Of a stretch of 24,281 nucleotides of DNA, positions 6,958-11,471 are shown piece after piece. The stretch lies in the IMG/VR virus record IMGVR_UViG_3300030385_000589, positions 1 through 24,281 of that record. One strand, 5' to 3'. The number at the start of each line of letters is the position of its first letter. Position 1 is the stretch's first letter. The notes under the pieces were generated by a model that was given only the letters and a program-made list of their open reading frames with translations, did no database searches and was not told the DNA's origin. The stretch comes from a virus. Both the position numbers and the translations under genes were made by a program.

Positions 6958-7077
6958 TTATGTCTTATTTCCGTTCGTAAAGAACCAGCCAAAGGATTCG
7001 TTGAAGAACTCCTCAAAGTGCCTCCATGCCCTTCTTAGGGGTATTAGGAAGCGTGTTATGTATTCTCTAGTTCTCAT
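6958..7077 (-). CDS. Small aromatic basic protein (39 residues)
   Basis: The ATG at 7075-7077 overlaps the end of the Cys-rich protein gene (stop at 7067-7069) by 11 bases, and the frame ends with TAA at 6958. The product starts MRTREYITRFLIPLRRAWRH and continues FEEFFNESFGWFFTNGNK; it is amphipathic, with an Arg-rich first half and an aromatic second half. It fills what would otherwise be an empty 137-base gap, and the WFFTNG ending resembles small phage proteins I have seen in flavobacteria. The function is unknown; a peptide interacting with membranes or a host protein is conceivable. Confidence 0.6.
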   Translation of the reverse strand: MRTREYITRFLIPLRRAWRHFEEFFNESFGWFFTNGNKT

Positions 7078-7495
7078 TTAGTGTTGCTTCTATTTTCTTA
7101 ATTACTTTTTTTAGGTCGTTTATTATGCAAGGTGGGCAGCTGGTCGGGGTTTTCCTTGTGCCTAGAATATCACTGTATAGGAAATAAGCCTTTTGCAAAT
7201 CCTTTGCGCTCACTCTTTCTAAACTTAGAATGTCTTTTAGAAACTCCTTGTTATCCATTAGCTCCTCCATCTCCTGTTTAGAGCTGCCCCAAATATCCAG
7301 AGGGCAACTTCCAAACTTTAACTTTGTTTTGTAATCCATAAAACACCCGCAAAGCCTTTTCTTTTCTCCTTCATGCACCACCCACTCACCCACTACTGGC
7401 TTTCCACAAGTTCTGGTTTTATCCCTAAAATGAATGCAAGAACTACAGAGGGCAATTCTTTTCTCCTGTCTTTCTTTGCTAGACTTCCAGATCAT
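7067..7495 (-). CDS. Cys-rich, zinc-ribbon-like phage protein
   Basis: 142 residues. The N-terminal half has paired cysteines: CSSC (17-20), TCGKP (C30), LCGC (49-51) and a later SCPLDIW (C64), arranged as expected for a metal-binding domain. The C-terminal half is helical (LKDILSLERVSAKDLQKAYF) and ends with a second motif GTRKTPTSCPPCIINDLKKV. This two-part build is common in Bacteroidota phages. The gene overlaps the end of the sigma-like gene by 17 bases, so the two are probably made together; a role with it in transcription control is an inference. No catalytic residues are evident. Confidence 0.7.
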   Translation of the reverse strand: MIWKSSKERQEKRIALCSSCIHFRDKTRTCGKPVVGEWVVHEGEKKRLCGCFMDYKTKLKFGSCPLDIWGSSKQEMEELMDNKEFLKDILSLERVSAKDLQKAYFLYSDILGTRKTPTSCPPCIINDLKKVIKKIEATLNEN

Positions 7496-7997
7496 TGTAG
7501 TGTTCTTTAATGTGGGCCTTTACTTTCTCGATTGTGTTGTATAAAATTTTCCTAGATATTCCACTTTGTTCTGCAAATTTGGTGAAGCTCAATCCTGAGC
7601 CTCCGAAATACACATTGAATACTTCTCTCTCAAAAAATGGCAGTCTCTTAATTATGAGCTCCACCTTTTCCATTTCCACCAGATGCATAAAGTCAAACTC
7701 TGTTTGTTCCTCCTCCAAGTAATCAATTACCTTATTCTCGGATCTGTTTTTATTCCATCTTAATTCACTTTTGTAAAAGTTTGATCTTTTACTATAGAGC
7801 TGGAATTTCATTATCTGAATACAATACGCCTCGGCTTTGTCCTCCTTATCTAACCTCTCCAGAAGTTCCTTATCTTTCTTGAGCAAGATCAAAAACAACT
7901 CCTGTACTAACTCCTCTCCTACCTCTACGCTTTTAGCTAAACCTATAGCTACTGACCTATAAAATTGATATTTACCCTCATACCTTTTAAAGCTCAT
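7479..7997 (-). CDS. Sigma-70/ECF-like transcription factor
   Basis: 172 residues. The N-terminal half (residues 8-85) is helical and resembles a sigma region 2, with VEVGEELVQELFLILLKK and KAEAYCIQIMKFQLYSKR. The C-terminal half resembles region 4: IIKRLPFFEREVFNVYF followed by a helix-turn-helix LSFTKFAEQSGISRKILYNT (residues 135-154). Small sigma-like proteins of this size are common in Bacteroidota phages and may direct late transcription. It is the first gene after an intergenic region with promoter-like boxes, and a TACTTTTG box lies only a few bases before its ATG, so its mRNA may be almost leaderless. Sigma activity is inferred. Confidence 0.65.
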   Translation of the reverse strand: MSFKRYEGKYQFYRSVAIGLAKSVEVGEELVQELFLILLKKDKELLERLDKEDKAEAYCIQIMKFQLYSKRSNFYKSELRWNKNRSENKVIDYLEEEQTEFDFMHLVEMEKVELIIKRLPFFEREVFNVYFGGSGLSFTKFAEQSGISRKILYNTIEKVKAHIKEHYNDLEV

Positions 7998-8003
7998 TAT
8001 TTA

Positions 8004-8011
8004 CAAAAGTA
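8004..8011 (-). promoter_or_regulatory. Candidate -7 box (TACTTTTG) for the sigma-like gene
   Basis: TACTTTTG on the minus strand matches the Bacteroidota consensus TAnnTTTG. It ends 7 bases before the ATG of the sigma-like gene, so a transcript started from it would have almost no leader. No clear -33 TTTG is visible at the expected distance. The flanking TGTTCTA and TGTAAATAA words recur at 14819-14836, so this could also be part of an operator. Confidence 0.4.
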
Positions 8012-8023
8012 GAACATTATCTT

Positions 8024-8031
8024 TATATTTG
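8024..8031 (+). promoter_or_regulatory. Candidate rightward -7 box (TATATTTG)
   Basis: TATATTTG on the plus strand matches TAnnTTTG and is followed by GC, as in many flavobacterial promoters. It faces away from the sigma-like gene and has no plus-strand gene downstream, only a hairpin with a T run at 8059-8108. The arrangement TTTACAAAnnTAGAACA followed by TATATTTG resembles paired opposed promoters around phage regulators. Confidence 0.4.
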
Positions 8032-8036
8032 CAGAA

Positions 8037-8108
8037 GTTTGTAATTTTTATTGGTTAGGGGTGGGCTGAGCTTTTTTAGGAATAATTTAAGTTGGCCCAC
8101 CCTTTTTT
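8037..8108 (+). ncRNA. Possible short plus-strand RNA
   Basis: If the TATATTTG box at 8024 is used, transcription would begin near 8037 and stop at the hairpin with T run ending at 8108, giving an RNA of about 70 bases. It has no ORF worth noting. It would be the only plus-strand transcript supported by signals in this window, and it lies in the gap between two regulatory-looking genes. The prediction rests on one promoter box and one terminator only. Confidence 0.3.
8059..8108 (+). terminator. Intrinsic terminator hairpin followed by T6
   Basis: GGGTGGGC at 8059-8066 pairs perfectly with GCCCACCC at 8095-8102 and is followed by TTTTTT on the plus strand. A weaker inner extension (GAGCTT with AAGTT) narrows the 28-base loop. 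On the minus strand there is no T run after the stem, so the orientation favours plus-strand termination, although it could also hinder minus-strand read-through from 8113. Confidence 0.55.
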
Positions 8109-8112
8109 CATT

Positions 8113-8502
8113 CTAATAAAGTTCTGTGTATTGTGACTCCATGGCCTCCATCACTATCAACTGGCTTTTAATCCTTTCATCTAAGCTAATTATACACCTC
8201 AGAAACTCCTCCTTTGTTTCGGCTACAAAATAGCCTTGTGAGTTCGCACATAATCCTTTTATGCATCCAAGAACTCTAATGGCTGCAATTACTTTTCTAA
8301 GCCTTGCAGCTGAGATTATATTTTTGCATCCAGCACCAATATCAGGGTGGAGCAGAAAATTAACCGTCAGGAGTATTTGGTGGTTTGGTGTGGCCTTTCC
8401 CTTGCCTATTTTAGTTTTTAGCATATCCACCACTAAAGGCATTATAACTCGGGTTTCAAAACCGCTAATTTCTTTTGTAATCTGTTCAAAGTTCGTAATC
8501 AT
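8113..8502 (-). CDS. Winged-helix-like conserved phage protein
   Basis: 129 residues. The order is: an N-terminal helix (MITNFEQITKEISGFE), IMPLVVDMLKTKIGKGKATP near 20-39, a predicted recognition region ISAARLRKVIAAIRVLGCIK (63-82), GLCANSQGYFVAE, and a C-terminal helix EEFLRCIISLDERIKSQ. The ARLRKVI..IR...C..GL.A.S.GY pattern is a family I recognise from Bacteroidota phages; it looks like a winged helix and is probably DNA-binding. It lies between the cassette-like region and the sigma-like gene. A regulatory or replication role is inferred. Confidence 0.65.
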   Translation of the reverse strand: MITNFEQITKEISGFETRVIMPLVVDMLKTKIGKGKATPNHQILLTVNFLLHPDIGAGCKNIISAARLRKVIAAIRVLGCIKGLCANSQGYFVAETKEEFLRCIISLDERIKSQLIVMEAMESQYTELY

Positions 8503-8526
8503 TGTTTTGTTTTTAATTGGTTAAAA

Positions 8527-8590
8527 TTTTAACGAGGTATAAAATAAACCCTACGGGTCGTTAACACTTAATTTTATACAGGTGTTAGGC
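8527..8590 (-). repeat. attC-like recombination site A (after the methyltransferase gene)
   Basis: Read on the minus strand after the methyltransferase stop: core GCCTAAC (8584-8590), then stem arm GTATAAAAT paired with ATTTTATAC (plus-strand 8537-8545 with 8571-8579, nine bases), a central small hairpin ACCC-GTA-GGGT (8548-8558), and a closing GTTAAAA (8527-8533). R''-L''-loop-L'-R' with RYYYAAC and near-GTTRRRY ends is the integron attC plan, at 64 bases within the usual range. Confidence 0.5.
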
Positions 8591-8594
8591 ACAA

Positions 8595-9197
8595 TTAAAA
8601 CATTGTTAATTGCTGTTGGTGTTTCTTTAATCTTTTGGTAGCTGCTTCAAAATAATCTTTGTCCATTTCGCAGGCAGTTAAATCATACTTTAAGTTGTGG
8701 CAAGCTAAAGCAATACTACCGCTTCCTAAATGAGTATCAAGTATTTTATTACCCTCTTTTGCATACCTCATTAATTGCCACTCATAAAGCTCAATTGGTT
8801 TTTGTGTTGGGTGTATTCTATTTAATTGCATTGCACTTGTTTTGTAAATCTTAGCACCATTTTTAAAAGAAGTCCAAGCCATTTCACACATAGCAAAACT
8901 CATATCTTCAGCTATTTTTTTATCCCAAACAATATAACATTTGCAGTTTCCTAATCTATCTAAAAAATAATTACCACCCCAAATAATTTGGTTCTTACTA
9001 ACTCTTTTTAGTTCTTCAAAGTATTCAGTTGTAGGTGTGTTTTTATCCCAGTCCTTTACTTCATACTTTTCTTTAAAGTGAGTTCCGCTTGAGTTTATAT
9101 TAATACCATAAGGTGGGTCAACTATTGCAAGGTCGAAATAATTATCTTCATACCTTGCCATTAGCTTCATATTATCTTCATTCGTTATTGTAATCAT
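8595..9197 (-). CDS. DNA adenine/cytosine-N4 methyltransferase, cassette-borne
   Basis: 200 residues. The catalytic motif IV DPPYG is at 27-31. The SAM-binding motif I comes later, as DTHLGSGS at 154-161 (a variant of the usual DPFxGSGT), after HPTQKP at 129-134. This order (IV, then I) is that of beta-class N6-adenine or N4-cytosine methyltransferases. It is short, with a small target-recognition region (about residues 32-120). No restriction enzyme gene is adjacent, so it is an orphan; likely roles are protecting phage DNA from host restriction or regulation. The gene is bounded by a perfect 12-base inverted repeat (TGTGCCTAACAC at 9225-9236, GTGTTAGGCACA at 8582-8593), suggesting it arrived as a cassette. 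Confidence 0.9.
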   Translation of the reverse strand: MITITNEDNMKLMARYEDNYFDLAIVDPPYGININSSGTHFKEKYEVKDWDKNTPTTEYFEELKRVSKNQIIWGGNYFLDRLGNCKCYIVWDKKIAEDMSFAMCEMAWTSFKNGAKIYKTSAMQLNRIHPTQKPIELYEWQLMRYAKEGNKILDTHLGSGSIALACHNLKYDLTACEMDKDYFEAATKRLKKHQQQLTMF

Positions 9198-9227
9198 ATC
9201 TATATTTTAATTCGTTAATAAAACTGT

Positions 9228-9286
9228 GCCTAACACACTTTATATGTCATTCGTACCTCACGCCACATACAGTAGTCATTGTAGGC
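9228..9286 (-). repeat. attC-like recombination site B (before the methyltransferase gene)
   Basis: On the minus strand the site runs from GCCTAC (9281-9286 on plus as GTAGGC, one base short of the usual core) through stem arm TGTATGT paired with ACATATA (seven pairs, one G-T) to a perfect GTTAGGC (9228-9234), which matches GTTRRRY. It is 59 bases long and lies directly between two short genes. Confidence 0.45.
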
Positions 9287-9296
9287 AATTAAAATG

Positions 9297-9542
9297 CTAA
9301 TGTTCTTTTAGTAGTTTCCCGCAACTTAAACATTCCTTTTTTTTTGATAGATTGTTAGCATAGTAAGATTCGCATTCTAAGTGTTCGCTTTGCCCTACAA
9401 CACTATCTATAGGTAATGTTTGCCCTTGCTTTAGTGCTTCAATTAGTTTCGGTATTCTGTCCTTATACGCTTGTGGGCAAGTTTCCCAATAAGTTAAATT
9501 GTCAAGTATTTCAGCTATGTCTTTTTTTTGATATTCAGTCAT
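9297..9542 (-). CDS. Small protein with C-terminal Cys pair, in the cassette-like region
   Basis: 81 residues. A helical N-terminal half (MTEYQKKDIAEILDNLTYWE, then YKDRIPKLIEALKQGQ) is followed by LPIDSVVGQSEHLECESYYANN and an ending with CLSCGKLL, possibly a partial metal-binding knuckle. I do not recognise the family. It is separated from its neighbours by 98 and 59 bases, unlike the overlapping genes elsewhere, and has attC-like sequence on its downstream side. It is probably a passenger gene. Coding is likely from composition and length, but it is unsupported by any known motif. Confidence 0.55.
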   Translation of the reverse strand: MTEYQKKDIAEILDNLTYWETCPQAYKDRIPKLIEALKQGQTLPIDSVVGQSEHLECESYYANNLSKKKECLSCGKLLKEH

Positions 9543-9601
9543 AATTCAGTATTTATTTATTCGGGCAAAAACTACCCATAGATTTGACGTTAGGCTTAAT
9601 A
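9543..9601 (-). repeat. Partial attC-like spacer C with GCCTAAC core
   Basis: Immediately after the 60-residue gene, the minus strand reads TAAGCCTAAC (plus 9589-9598), a full RYYYAAC core. A small hairpin GGG-TAGTTTTT-GCCC-like element follows (plus 9563-9577), but no matching GTTRRRY end is visible before the next ATG, so the site looks degenerate or unusual. Confidence 0.35.
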
Positions 9602-9784
9602 CTAAGCTAGTTTTTTCAAAGCCTCTTCAATCTCTATATTGTGTTGCATTTTGTCTTTAAGTACTTGTTTATACTCAAGTAATTTTTGACCCTTACACCC
9701 TTCTTTTATTGCGTTATCTGCGTTCTTTATTTGGGTTTCATTCCAATCTAAAGCGTCTTTTAATATCATTATTGCTCTATTCAT
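9602..9784 (-). CDS. Small helical protein, cassette-like
   Basis: 60 residues, predicted to be two helices: MNRAIMILKDALDWNETQIK, then a turn near KEGCKGQ, then LLEYKQVLKDKMQHNIEIEE. There is no recognisable motif. The gene is bounded by a perfect 10-base inverted repeat (TAAGCCTAAC at 9812-9821 and GTTAGGCTTA at 9589-9598), exactly the relation between the start and the attC core of an integron cassette. It may be a passenger protein of unknown function. The small size limits confidence that it is expressed, but the frame and start are clear. Confidence 0.55.
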   Translation of the reverse strand: MNRAIMILKDALDWNETQIKNADNAIKEGCKGQKLLEYKQVLKDKMQHNIEIEEALKKLA

Positions 9785-9814
9785 CTTTTTTTTATTTTAA
9801 TAATCCGTACATAA

Positions 9815-9868
9815 GCCTAACACTAAATAAAACCCATAGAAAAAACCGGTCTTATTCTTAACGTTACC
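9815..9868 (-). repeat. attC-like recombination site D
   Basis: On the minus strand: GGTAACG (plus 9862-9868), stem arm AATAAGACC paired with GGTTTTATT (plus 9848-9856 with 9826-9834; nine pairs including one G-T), then a perfect GTTAGGC (9815-9821). It is 54 bases long. The left core is poor, which would fit if the upstream gene belongs to the phage and not to a cassette. Confidence 0.45.
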
Positions 9869-9875
9869 AATAATA

Positions 9876-10058
9876 CTAAACTTTAGTGCTATCAATTAAC
9901 TCATTGTATTCTTCAATCCATTCAACTGGTATTTTCATACTTGCATCATAGTATCTTACTATAGCACCTCTAACCTCTTGCAATCTTTCTAGTCTATTTA
10001 CAAACTTAGGCTTCAATCCTATTGGTGGCATTTCTACTTTTTCGTGTTCTTTTTTCAT
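9876..10058 (-). CDS. Small conserved phage protein (EWIEEYNELI)
   Basis: 60 residues. The segment MPPIGLKPKFVNRLERLQEV (residues 10-29) and the ending IPVEWIEEYNELID resemble a small protein I have seen often in Bacteroidota phages. It is predicted to be helical, soluble and without catalytic residues. It follows the DnaC-like loader gene by 55 bases and is the last gene before the attC-like spacers; no matching GTTACC start was found upstream of it, so it is more likely native to the phage than a cassette. The function is unknown. Confidence 0.7.
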   Translation of the reverse strand: MKKEHEKVEMPPIGLKPKFVNRLERLQEVRGAIVRYYDASMKIPVEWIEEYNELIDSTKV

Positions 10059-10113
10059 TTTTTTATTTATTAAGTTTTATTATTATTTACCGCTACTAAT
10101 ATTATACCTATCA

Positions 10114-10833
10114 TTAAGTTCTGAATGTTTTCCCTTTAAATTCCACTATGTTAAACATGGAAAAGATCCTATCATAAACTCTAGGCCCGTACTTGGCAGA
10201 AAACTCATATATCCCAGCCTCCAAATTACCCTCCTCTTTTGGATCATAGTTACAAGTGAGGTGAGTGAGTGCATGGTTACTGTATCTCTTCTCTAAAATA
10301 TCTTTGAATAAATTTATCTTTCCGTAATTGCTGGCGTCTCTTTCTGTTTTTAGATCATCAAAGTATTTAGCTTTAGCTTTAAACCCGTTGAAAGTTCCTT
10401 TAATGTATTTCTTATTGAATACCTCTTTATCTGAGGGGCTACCACAAGCCTCATATTCATCCACTATTCCCATAGCGTGGTAACTCATAAAACTCTTATC
10501 GCATCCATTTAGGGCCAACTGTAGAGCTGCCATGTAAGAACTCTTACCAGTTCCATACGTTCCAATAATTAATAAGCCCTTTTCAAAGCTGGGAGTATTC
10601 TTTGAGCTCCAGAGGTTCTCACAATCAAAAAACCTTTTATCTTCTGAGAAATAAAAAATTAAAGTCTTTAGGTTATTAATGGCCTCTGGGGTTTCCTTAA
10701 ACTCCTGGAGAGGGTTAAGCTGTTTCCAGAAGTATCTAAACCTACTCCATAGCTCTTTATCTGTAAATTGTATTTTGGGATCTTGAAATTTAAGCTCCTC
10801 TTTCCTTTTGGTATTTACTTCTGAAATTTTCAT
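10114..10833 (-). CDS. DnaC-like helicase loader ATPase
   Basis: 239 residues. An N-terminal region (1-80) probably binds the helicase. It is followed by an AAA+ core: Walker A GTYGTGKS at 91-98, Walker B KYFDDL at 156-161, a sensor-like TCNYD near 193-197, and KYGPRVYDRIFSMFNIVEFK with R218 and R222 as candidate arginine fingers. This matches DnaC/IstB-type loaders, which place DnaB helicase on the origin. No helicase gene is present here, so it probably captures the host DnaB. It follows the initiator-like gene by 2 bases. Confidence 0.85.
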   Translation of the reverse strand: MKISEVNTKRKEELKFQDPKIQFTDKELWSRFRYFWKQLNPLQEFKETPEAINNLKTLIFYFSEDKRFFDCENLWSSKNTPSFEKGLLIIGTYGTGKSSYMAALQLALNGCDKSFMSYHAMGIVDEYEACGSPSDKEVFNKKYIKGTFNGFKAKAKYFDDLKTERDASNYGKINLFKDILEKRYSNHALTHLTCNYDPKEEGNLEAGIYEFSAKYGPRVYDRIFSMFNIVEFKGKTFRT

Positions 10834-10835
10834 TT

Positions 10836-11471
10836 TTATCTCATTAAAGGGTTTCTGGTGGTTTGTTTATTATCATAATTTCCTTCTATTATCTTGACGA
10901 AATTAGAGGAATTAATTACCCAGTCAAAATTTGCTTTCCAGTTCCTGTCGTTTTCACCTTGTAAAAAATCAGAACCTTGTACTTTTTTAAAAGCATTACT
11001 CAGCTCCTCTCTGCCATGTTCTTTTATTCTAATTTTTAGATGATTTTTCCTTTCGGTGTTTAGAGCTTTTAACTTTGAAAGTTTCCAATTAAAGGAATTC
11101 CACTCTAAGATTATACCTTTATAATCTACATTAACATTATCATTTACATTTACATTAACATTAACAGTTGACTTAGGTTTAACCTTGGTTAACGTAGGTT
11201 GAACCTTGGTGCTAGCCCTTGCCTCTGCTGACTTTTTGCCCATGTTACTATAGCTTTTTAGCTGTTTATCCCACTTTAGAAGGTCAGCTTTAAGCATAGG
11301 TTTCATGTGGCCAAAAGCCATTTTAACAAGTAGGTTTTTACTCTCTGGGTTTTCATCATTCACATAGGCCAGAATATGTTTTAAGAGCTCACCAGCATCC
11401 TCGTTGGGCATCTCCTTAATCATGTTACTCCAATCTGAATAGAAGACGAATGTCTTTTTTCCTGTGGCCAT
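10836..11471 (-). CDS. Replication-initiator-like protein with low-complexity linker
   Basis: 211 residues. The N-terminal domain (1-85; VFYSDWSNMIKEMPNEDAGE, LLKHILAYVNDENPES) resembles DUF6291-type domains found at the start of phage replication proteins. A linker at about 86-118 contains repeated KV/TV units and a striking NVNVNVNDNVNV run. The C-terminal region ends with KKVQGSDFLQGENDRNWKAN and FDWVINSSNFVKIIEGNYDN, a pattern common to phage primosome and initiator proteins. It lies directly before the DnaC-like loader, the usual initiator-loader pair. DNA binding is inferred. Confidence 0.7.
   Translation of the reverse strand: MATGKKTFVFYSDWSNMIKEMPNEDAGELLKHILAYVNDENPESKNLLVKMAFGHMKPMLKADLLKWDKQLKSYSNMGKKSAEARASTKVQPTLTKVKPKSTVNVNVNVNDNVNVDYKGIILEWNSFNWKLSKLKALNTERKNHLKIRIKEHGREELSNAFKKVQGSDFLQGENDRNWKANFDWVINSSNFVKIIEGNYDNKQTTRNPLMR

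Follow-up and report, generated by a model that had tools for sequence, protein, structure and literature searches.

Four attC-like sites bounding three gene cassettes lie between positions 8525 and 9871 of the window, the 24,281-base linear virus contig that was analyzed over its whole length, and an earlier reading made from the DNA letters alone (the sequence-only reading) had described them largely correctly. The array and the site-specific turnover of its units are well supported, and we hold both with high confidence. The sequence evidence makes it probable that this is a genuine integron-type cassette array, exchanged at a TAA|C core by a recombinase that lacks the IntI insert and is supplied in trans. 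The assignment of this insert-less recombinase as the enzyme for these sites is judged likely based on its linkage to sites of the same family and to an attI-like site; its activity is inferred and has not been shown for the window. The observation made in the sequence-only reading is confirmed, and its interpretation is supported.

The window contains genes for a large terminase (PF04466, phrog_2), a portal and tape-measure proteins, which identify the record as a tailed phage. The named phages nearest to it by the methyltransferase gene have Nonlabens, Cellulophaga and Flavobacterium as hosts, making a Bacteroidota host likely but not shown; the earlier designation as a flavobacterial phage agrees with these relatives and has no other support. 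As had been claimed, no integrase was found in the array-bearing phage: searches of records G000, G669 and G670 with PF00589 and TIGR02249 detected no tyrosine recombinase in the window record, which may be incomplete. The array lies between a 129-residue gene (8113–8502, minus strand; 92% identical in relatives) and the gene for a DnaC-like helicase loader (10114–10833, minus strand; profile match, 96% identical in the related contig L364).

The four sites (W1–W4), all on the minus strand, are packed into 1.35 kb, and the inter-gene spacers measure 92, 99, 59 and 91 nt. W1 (8525–8592) is composed of a GCCTAAC core, the stem GTATAAAAT/ATTTTATAC and a degenerate right core, GTTAAAA. The first cassette gene (8595–9197, minus strand) encodes a 200-residue N6/N4 DNA methyltransferase (PF01555, E = 1e-15; phrog_67). 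W2 (9224–9286), recognized by its covariance match, has an imperfect stem and a degenerate left core (CCTACAAT), and its apical GAGGTACGAA is also found in the Polaribacter phage P12002L. W3 (9395–9595) is 201 nt long and reads GCCTAAC ... ATCTATGGGTA ... TACCTATAGAT AGTG TTGTAG, with the 81-residue ORF of the second cassette (9297–9542, minus strand; ORF call) starting in its apical part. The third cassette gene is a 60-residue ORF (9602–9784, minus strand), for which, as for the 60-residue ORF at 9876–10058, no relatives were found in the viral contigs and comparison loci searched. W4 (9812–9871) gives the best covariance match and resembles the site that precedes the methyltransferase cassette of the viral contig L028. 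The cores GCCTAAC/GTTAGGC fit the RYYYAAC/GTTRRRY consensus on the left of W1 and W3 and on the right of W2 and W4; the right cores of W1 and W3 and the left core of W2 are degenerate, and GTTATG.. is common across the wider family.

Two of these genes had been said to be bounded by perfect inverted repeats, and both repeats are exact. The methyltransferase cassette ends in GTGTTAGGCACA (8582–8593, plus strand), which pairs at 12 of 12 positions with the cassette start at 9225–9236 (minus strand; GTGTTAGGCACA on the gene strand, TGTGCCTAACAC as read), and the cassette-end repeat GTTAGGCTTA (9589–9598, plus strand) pairs at 10 of 10 with TAAGCCTAAC (9812–9821) around the 60-residue gene. These are the only two perfect GTTA-anchored 10-mer pairs spaced 0.1–1.5 kb apart in the window, where a Markov model predicts some 0.4 distinct pairs, or 0.8 with both strands included (maximum 6). 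The number of GTTAGGC heptamers is not significant (6 observed against 2.75 expected, with 7 of 100 shuffles reaching 6), nor could the AT-rich window sites be separated from shuffles by folding energy, and the argument therefore rests on architecture and relatives. The weak folding energy, the AT-rich stems and the position of the sites between genes would also be expected of transcription terminators or other hairpins that flank late-acquired genes and have no role in recombination. We regard this explanation as very improbable, given conserved AAC/GTT cores outside the stem, covariation within the stem and turnover at the cores, and the cassette exchange described below already contradicts it.

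Two covariance models built independently of the window both detect the array. R1 rests on 46 sites drawn from other genomes and from viral contigs and contains no window sequence; its stem shows compensatory change in all ten pairs, a count that leans upward because the sites were picked for a good stem. In the window R1 matches 9815–9869 (minus strand, E = 1.2e-4), 8527–8590 (E = 0.3) and 9228–9284 (minus strand, E = 4), all among its six best matches. R2 derives from 125 matches, none of them in the window or its closest relative, and its five best matches in the 24-kb window all fall within 8527–9869 (9815–9869, E = 2e-5; 9395–9595, E = 0.004; 8527–8590, E = 0.13, on both strands; 9228–9284, E = 0.38). 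Two of the four sites score weakly, and all of these E-values are rough, since calibration was shortened. A covariance search of the 8500–9900 region, which had been proposed as the check on the array, is in this way answered with matches. A search of Rfam gave no match of note to any curated model for the window, and none to an attC family. With these models the criterion for a CALIN of at least two neighbouring attC sites is satisfied, as is the absence of an integron integrase from the record, within the limits of its completeness.

The sequence-only reading had counted four spacers with cores, three of them with a stem. The cores are present, but the fourth spacer (9536–9598) is the left end of the long site W3, whose partner arm is placed by R2 200 nt from the 9589 core, inside the 81-residue ORF. 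Both arms are kept in the contig L082 around a different interior, and the window and L082 cassettes both end in TTGCCTACAA; from the conservation of the arms we infer that the ORF starts in the apex of the site and runs on across the right core, which it translates as SVVGQSE. An ORF arranged in this way within a site is also seen in L365, with another stem and another tail. In all three contigs (window, 9297–9595; L082, 3312–3650; L365, 7470–7700) the ORF starts in the attC-like apex and continues in frame through the right core, and its N- and C-terminal parts vary between contigs. Judging from these sequences, cassette exchange through such a site may create chimeric proteins.

Comparison with close relatives revealed that units are gained, lost and exchanged at the predicted core. 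L364 is 93% identical to the window over 7001–8586 and 90% identical over 10082–10834, with nothing in common between, and its variable block holds six other cassettes, with ends such as GTTATGGTAC/GTACCATAAC and GTTATATGCT/AGCATATAAC. Homology with L364, L377 and L380 stops at 8586/8587, between the T and AAC of the W1 left core (GCCT|AAC), and L379 matches the window up to 8588. The W1 hairpin is thus found joined to three different cassettes: the methyltransferase in the window, a cassette ending GTGTTAC in L364, L377 and L380, and a third, ending GGTTGCT, in L379. Towards the helicase loader, a 60-residue ORF (9876–10058, minus strand; ORF call) lies at the left edge of the variable block, followed by a probable decayed half of an old site (10059–10113, minus strand); the end of L364 homology at 10082 falls within the hairpin of the attC that stands after the helicase-loader gene in L364. 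L364 also carries an extra YopX-family cassette (ends GTTAGGGCAA/TTGCCCTAAC) where the window has only a cassette-free junction (10834–10836) of two almost adjoining genes. The methyltransferase of L028 is 65% identical to that of the window and has the same leader, GTTAGGCACAGTTTTATTAACG, and the same end, TGTGCCTAAC; it is preceded by the W4-like site and not by a W2-like one. Conservation of the spacers among relatives without cassette turnover would have refuted the sequence-only reading, and the reverse was observed. The units meet the CALIN criterion of mobility as units. The further suggestion that the phage carries cassettes between hosts holds for exchange between related phages; carriage between hosts has not been shown.

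Several further features of these contigs were noted. The YopX-family cassette of L364 (5199–5996) is positioned directly after the stop codon of the upstream gene (GATAA|C), which suggests that it inserted at a chance TAA outside any attC site. The W1 type of hairpin is present three times in L364 (5923–5996, 7322–7383 and 8069–8150), with different left cores, and two of the three stand directly before conserved phage genes. Two short viral contigs, L005 (86–4000) and L004, carry arrays composed almost entirely of cassettes for DNA methyltransferases (L005 has at least three, or four with a 215-residue one), and in L004 a block of methyltransferase and 93-residue cassettes is repeated, with edges at TAA|C. 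The methyltransferase family was considered as a cassette marker and rejected: only a few of 80 loci have cassette-type ends and most relatives are plain overlapping phage genes without sites, so the gene family itself is not diagnostic.

The boundaries of shared blocks, analyzed with the loop-based site set, define the mobile unit. At identities of at least 93% and without redundancy, left ends fall at R″ in 15 cases and at R′ in 1, and right ends at R″ in 12 and at R′ in 6. Blocks bounded at both ends are R″–R″ in five cases and R′–R′ in none. A hairpin belonging to the preceding gene would predict shared cassettes that start and end at R′. Some shared blocks do end at R′, as expected for right ends where neighbouring hairpins are alike. 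The R″–R″ blocks lead to a unit of the form TAA|C-hairpin-GTTA-gene-TAA, and these boundaries place the hairpin of the viral mobile unit 5′ of its gene. Classical cassettes have the opposite layout, so that the criterion of a hairpin at the 3′ end fails. The genes are in the sense orientation relative to the hairpin at ratios of 110:5 and 54:3 in viral loci and 10:62 in bacterial contigs, which indicates that bacterial arrays mostly have the classical orientation and viral ones the reversed one; the related bacterial recombinases, of about 350–390 residues, are convergent to the array in 16 of 16 matches. The earlier proposal that the start of a cassette is complementary to the R″ core of its own attC was correct as to the complementary ends and mistaken in placing the hairpin at the 3′ end of the gene. 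Within a single site, R″/R′ complementarity equals that of shuffled pairs (2.59 against 2.42 of 6), as it should if the two cores are parts of different cassettes. A first count over neighbouring detected sites was diluted, since sites without the CGTTTTAATG loop were missed.

Whole-block exchange between the window and L364 could also stem from homologous recombination in their conserved flanks, and the hairpins of one array are often near-identical, so that ordinary mosaicism without a site-specific enzyme must be weighed. We consider this unlikely. Breakpoints pile up on the TAAC core, where 27 of 90 left ends share one offset; single cassettes with both ends at cores are common to otherwise different contigs at 94–99.9% identity; three cassettes join one core in near-identical phages; and the complementary cassette ends would be left unexplained.

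By sequence, the window sites are members of a site family that spans the Bacteroidota and occurs in genomes lacking a canonical integron integrase. Sites with the CGTTTTAATG loop pattern were found in at least 117 genome stretches, mostly Bacteroidota by title, and in at least 120 viral stretches. Across the phylum, 105 of 395 sampled genomes had a canonical IntI above cut-off, a search that serves as positive control for the host order: the order to which a site-bearing Aquimarina genome belongs (Flavobacteriales-type) gave none in 296 genomes, and the 28 genomes that carry the sites gave none either. A canonical IntI of the host order was for this reason rejected as the cassette mover. The occurrence of IntI elsewhere in the phylum nevertheless keeps alive a scenario in which ordinary attC sites were captured from bacterial integrons and are moved by a host IntI, the window being a passive CALIN. 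In keeping with this, five of six phage sites were shown to recombine with IntI1 and a site of P12002L did so in E. coli (PMC9892861), and the P12002L sites score 53–58 bits with R1, the model that finds the window sites. Recognition of the folded single strand by an IntI, a mark of classical cassettes, has been published for P12002L only. By analogy the window sites are probably usable by a classical integrase. We think the capture scenario improbable without dismissing it: besides the missing IntI, no such sites lie within 1.5 kb of 20 canonical Bacteroidota intI genes, genes in viral arrays face the opposite way with respect to the hairpin, and the sites are linked to another recombinase.

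This recombinase provides the strongest candidate for the enzyme acting on the array in the preferred reading. Among 50 records covering the window, its relatives and array-bearing contigs, 13 have a PF00589 protein; 12 of the 13 were inspected and all encode a similar protein, mostly of about 266 residues (one recovered only partly), positioned 3′ of the array on the same strand in 11 of 12. When 80 viral loci were fetched by the recombinase alone, 54 contained sites (E ≤ 0.01), and all 137 site matches were on the recombinase strand and all but one upstream; the other 26 loci, some of which begin near a contig end, had no match. Methyltransferase loci, as control, gave 3 site matches in 512 kb, and no sites below E = 0.5 were found beside canonical IntI or XerC/D within flanks of 1.5 kb. 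The protein scores 143–167 bits, in two stretches, against the IntI model TIGR02249 (cut-off 265), 133–174 bits against XerC/XerD (cut-offs 330–335) and, as its best family, 179–198 bits against NF040815 (family cut-offs 220 and 265 bits), and thus falls below the cut-offs of the IntI, XerC, XerD and XerA families. The expected catalytic residues are kept, the columns of the 31- and 11-residue inserts of Bacteroidota IntI are empty in viral and bacterial members, and in the tree its clades lie apart from IntI and from Xer (separate from XerC/XerD with support 0.999). The predicted fold (pLDDT 85) is most similar to XerA (5hxy) and IntI4 (2a3v). The IMG/VR contigs are predicted viruses, and a terminase is present in 20 of 44 records. 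Four contigs of 54–310 kb (G682, G686, G696 and G712; loci L400, L403, L405 and L401) contain both a terminase and the array-linked recombinase and are candidates for large phages with a complete integron-like platform.

Approximately 40–90 bp before the recombinase gene, 75 of 76 loci have an attI-like motif, TAAC...TATA, typically TAACTATTATATAT; by comparison, 16% of random windows contain the loose pattern. The sequence left of TAAC is variable, with the boundary between variable and conserved sequence at TAAC itself, and the nine bases left of it are complementary to the upstream GTTA start, the last cassette's own, in 32 of 52 loci, against 1 of 52 with the bases of another locus. This layout is as expected of an insertion site, although recombination there is inferred. 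The platform criterion of an attI-like site adjoining the integrase gene is satisfied by the linked recombinase (TAACTA..TATAT), without recombination data. The window and its relatives have no attI-like motif and no recombinase, and only the common site family connects them to the enzyme. In bacterial arrays (L548, L549 and L551) the terminal element is a different attI-like candidate, either xxxTAAC ATTTGGCTAAACGCCACTGTGGCG or the palindrome GATAACATCACCGGTGATGTTAT, beside convergent recombinases of about 380 residues. A bacterial chromosome (L554, 9127–9970; G131) encodes a 270-residue recombinase of the viral type, preceded at 20 bp by the TAACTATTATATAT motif; this may mark a prophage or a recent transfer.

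In the proposed mechanism the mobile unit would consist of a hairpin site and then a gene, extending from one TAA|C core to the next, and a site-specific recombinase would swap units at that core. Because the window phage encodes no such enzyme, one must be supplied in trans, most likely the approximately 266-residue tyrosine recombinase without IntI insert that in other viral contigs adjoins the attI-like site closing arrays of this site family on their 3′ side; it is inferred to act on a folded single strand. What the sequences alone establish is that the sites exist, that units are exchanged and where the breaks fall, and that sites, attI-like motif and recombinase are linked. The cassette genes are predicted to serve the phage, with the methyltransferase probably protecting phage DNA from host restriction, an inference that follows the suggestion of Qi et al. 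for similar genes.

It is somewhat probable, in our estimation, that Bacteroidota phages own a distinct integron class, with an insert-less recombinase, an attI-like site and 5′-hairpin cassettes whose genes read towards the recombinase, and that phages like that of the window are satellite users of its cassette pool, swapping anti-restriction and other small genes. The part that looks new lies outside the window, in the insert-less recombinase and attI-like arrays with sites of the same family; we found nothing in the literature on this type of recombinase array, subscription papers and preprints not being covered. Almost no complete integrons have been reported in Bacteroidetes proper, IntegronFinder 2.0 recording one only in Salinibacter (PMC9024848), and the tools used look for IntI with its insert, which would account for the scarcity. 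Were the linked recombinase to prove the missing enzyme, Bacteroidota and their phages would possess a large cassette system that has escaped notice, cassettes could recombine without the IntI insert, and phages would own integrons instead of merely carrying them, forming a standing reservoir in which methyltransferases and other accessory genes are reshuffled in single steps. The findings bear on what moves cassettes without IntI and on the fast turnover of phage accessory genes.

Clusters of attC sites in phages have been published, including those of the virulent phage P12002L with its methyltransferase cassettes (Qi 2023, PMC9892861), and the window array belongs to this kind: it shares with the CALINs of virulent phages an integrase-free attC-like array, methyltransferase cassettes and the same hairpin family, and one P12002L methyltransferase cassette has the core ends GTTAGGCAC/GTGCCTAAC of the window. 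Beyond that work, the present analysis adds exchange between close relatives, follows the site family to arrays that have a recombinase and an attI-like site of their own, and places the hairpin at the 5′ end of the gene. With XerA/XerC-like simple tyrosine recombinases (NF040815; PDB 5hxy, 4a8e) the linked recombinase shares its best family score and its fold; it differs from Bacteroidota XerC/D in standing separately in the tree and at cassette arrays. It was also compared with the "integron-like" tyrosine recombinase subgroup of Smyshlyaev 2021 (PMC8138268), the study in which the IntI insert was reported to be essential for integron function, so that an enzyme without it may do something else. 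With the classical integron (IntI, attI, attC) the viral system has in common R/L-box hairpins, complementary cassette ends, joints at AA|C and an attI-like site beside a simple tyrosine recombinase gene, whereas its recombinase lacks the 31- and 11-residue IntI inserts and groups outside IntI, and the genes of viral arrays point towards attI, co-directional with the recombinase.
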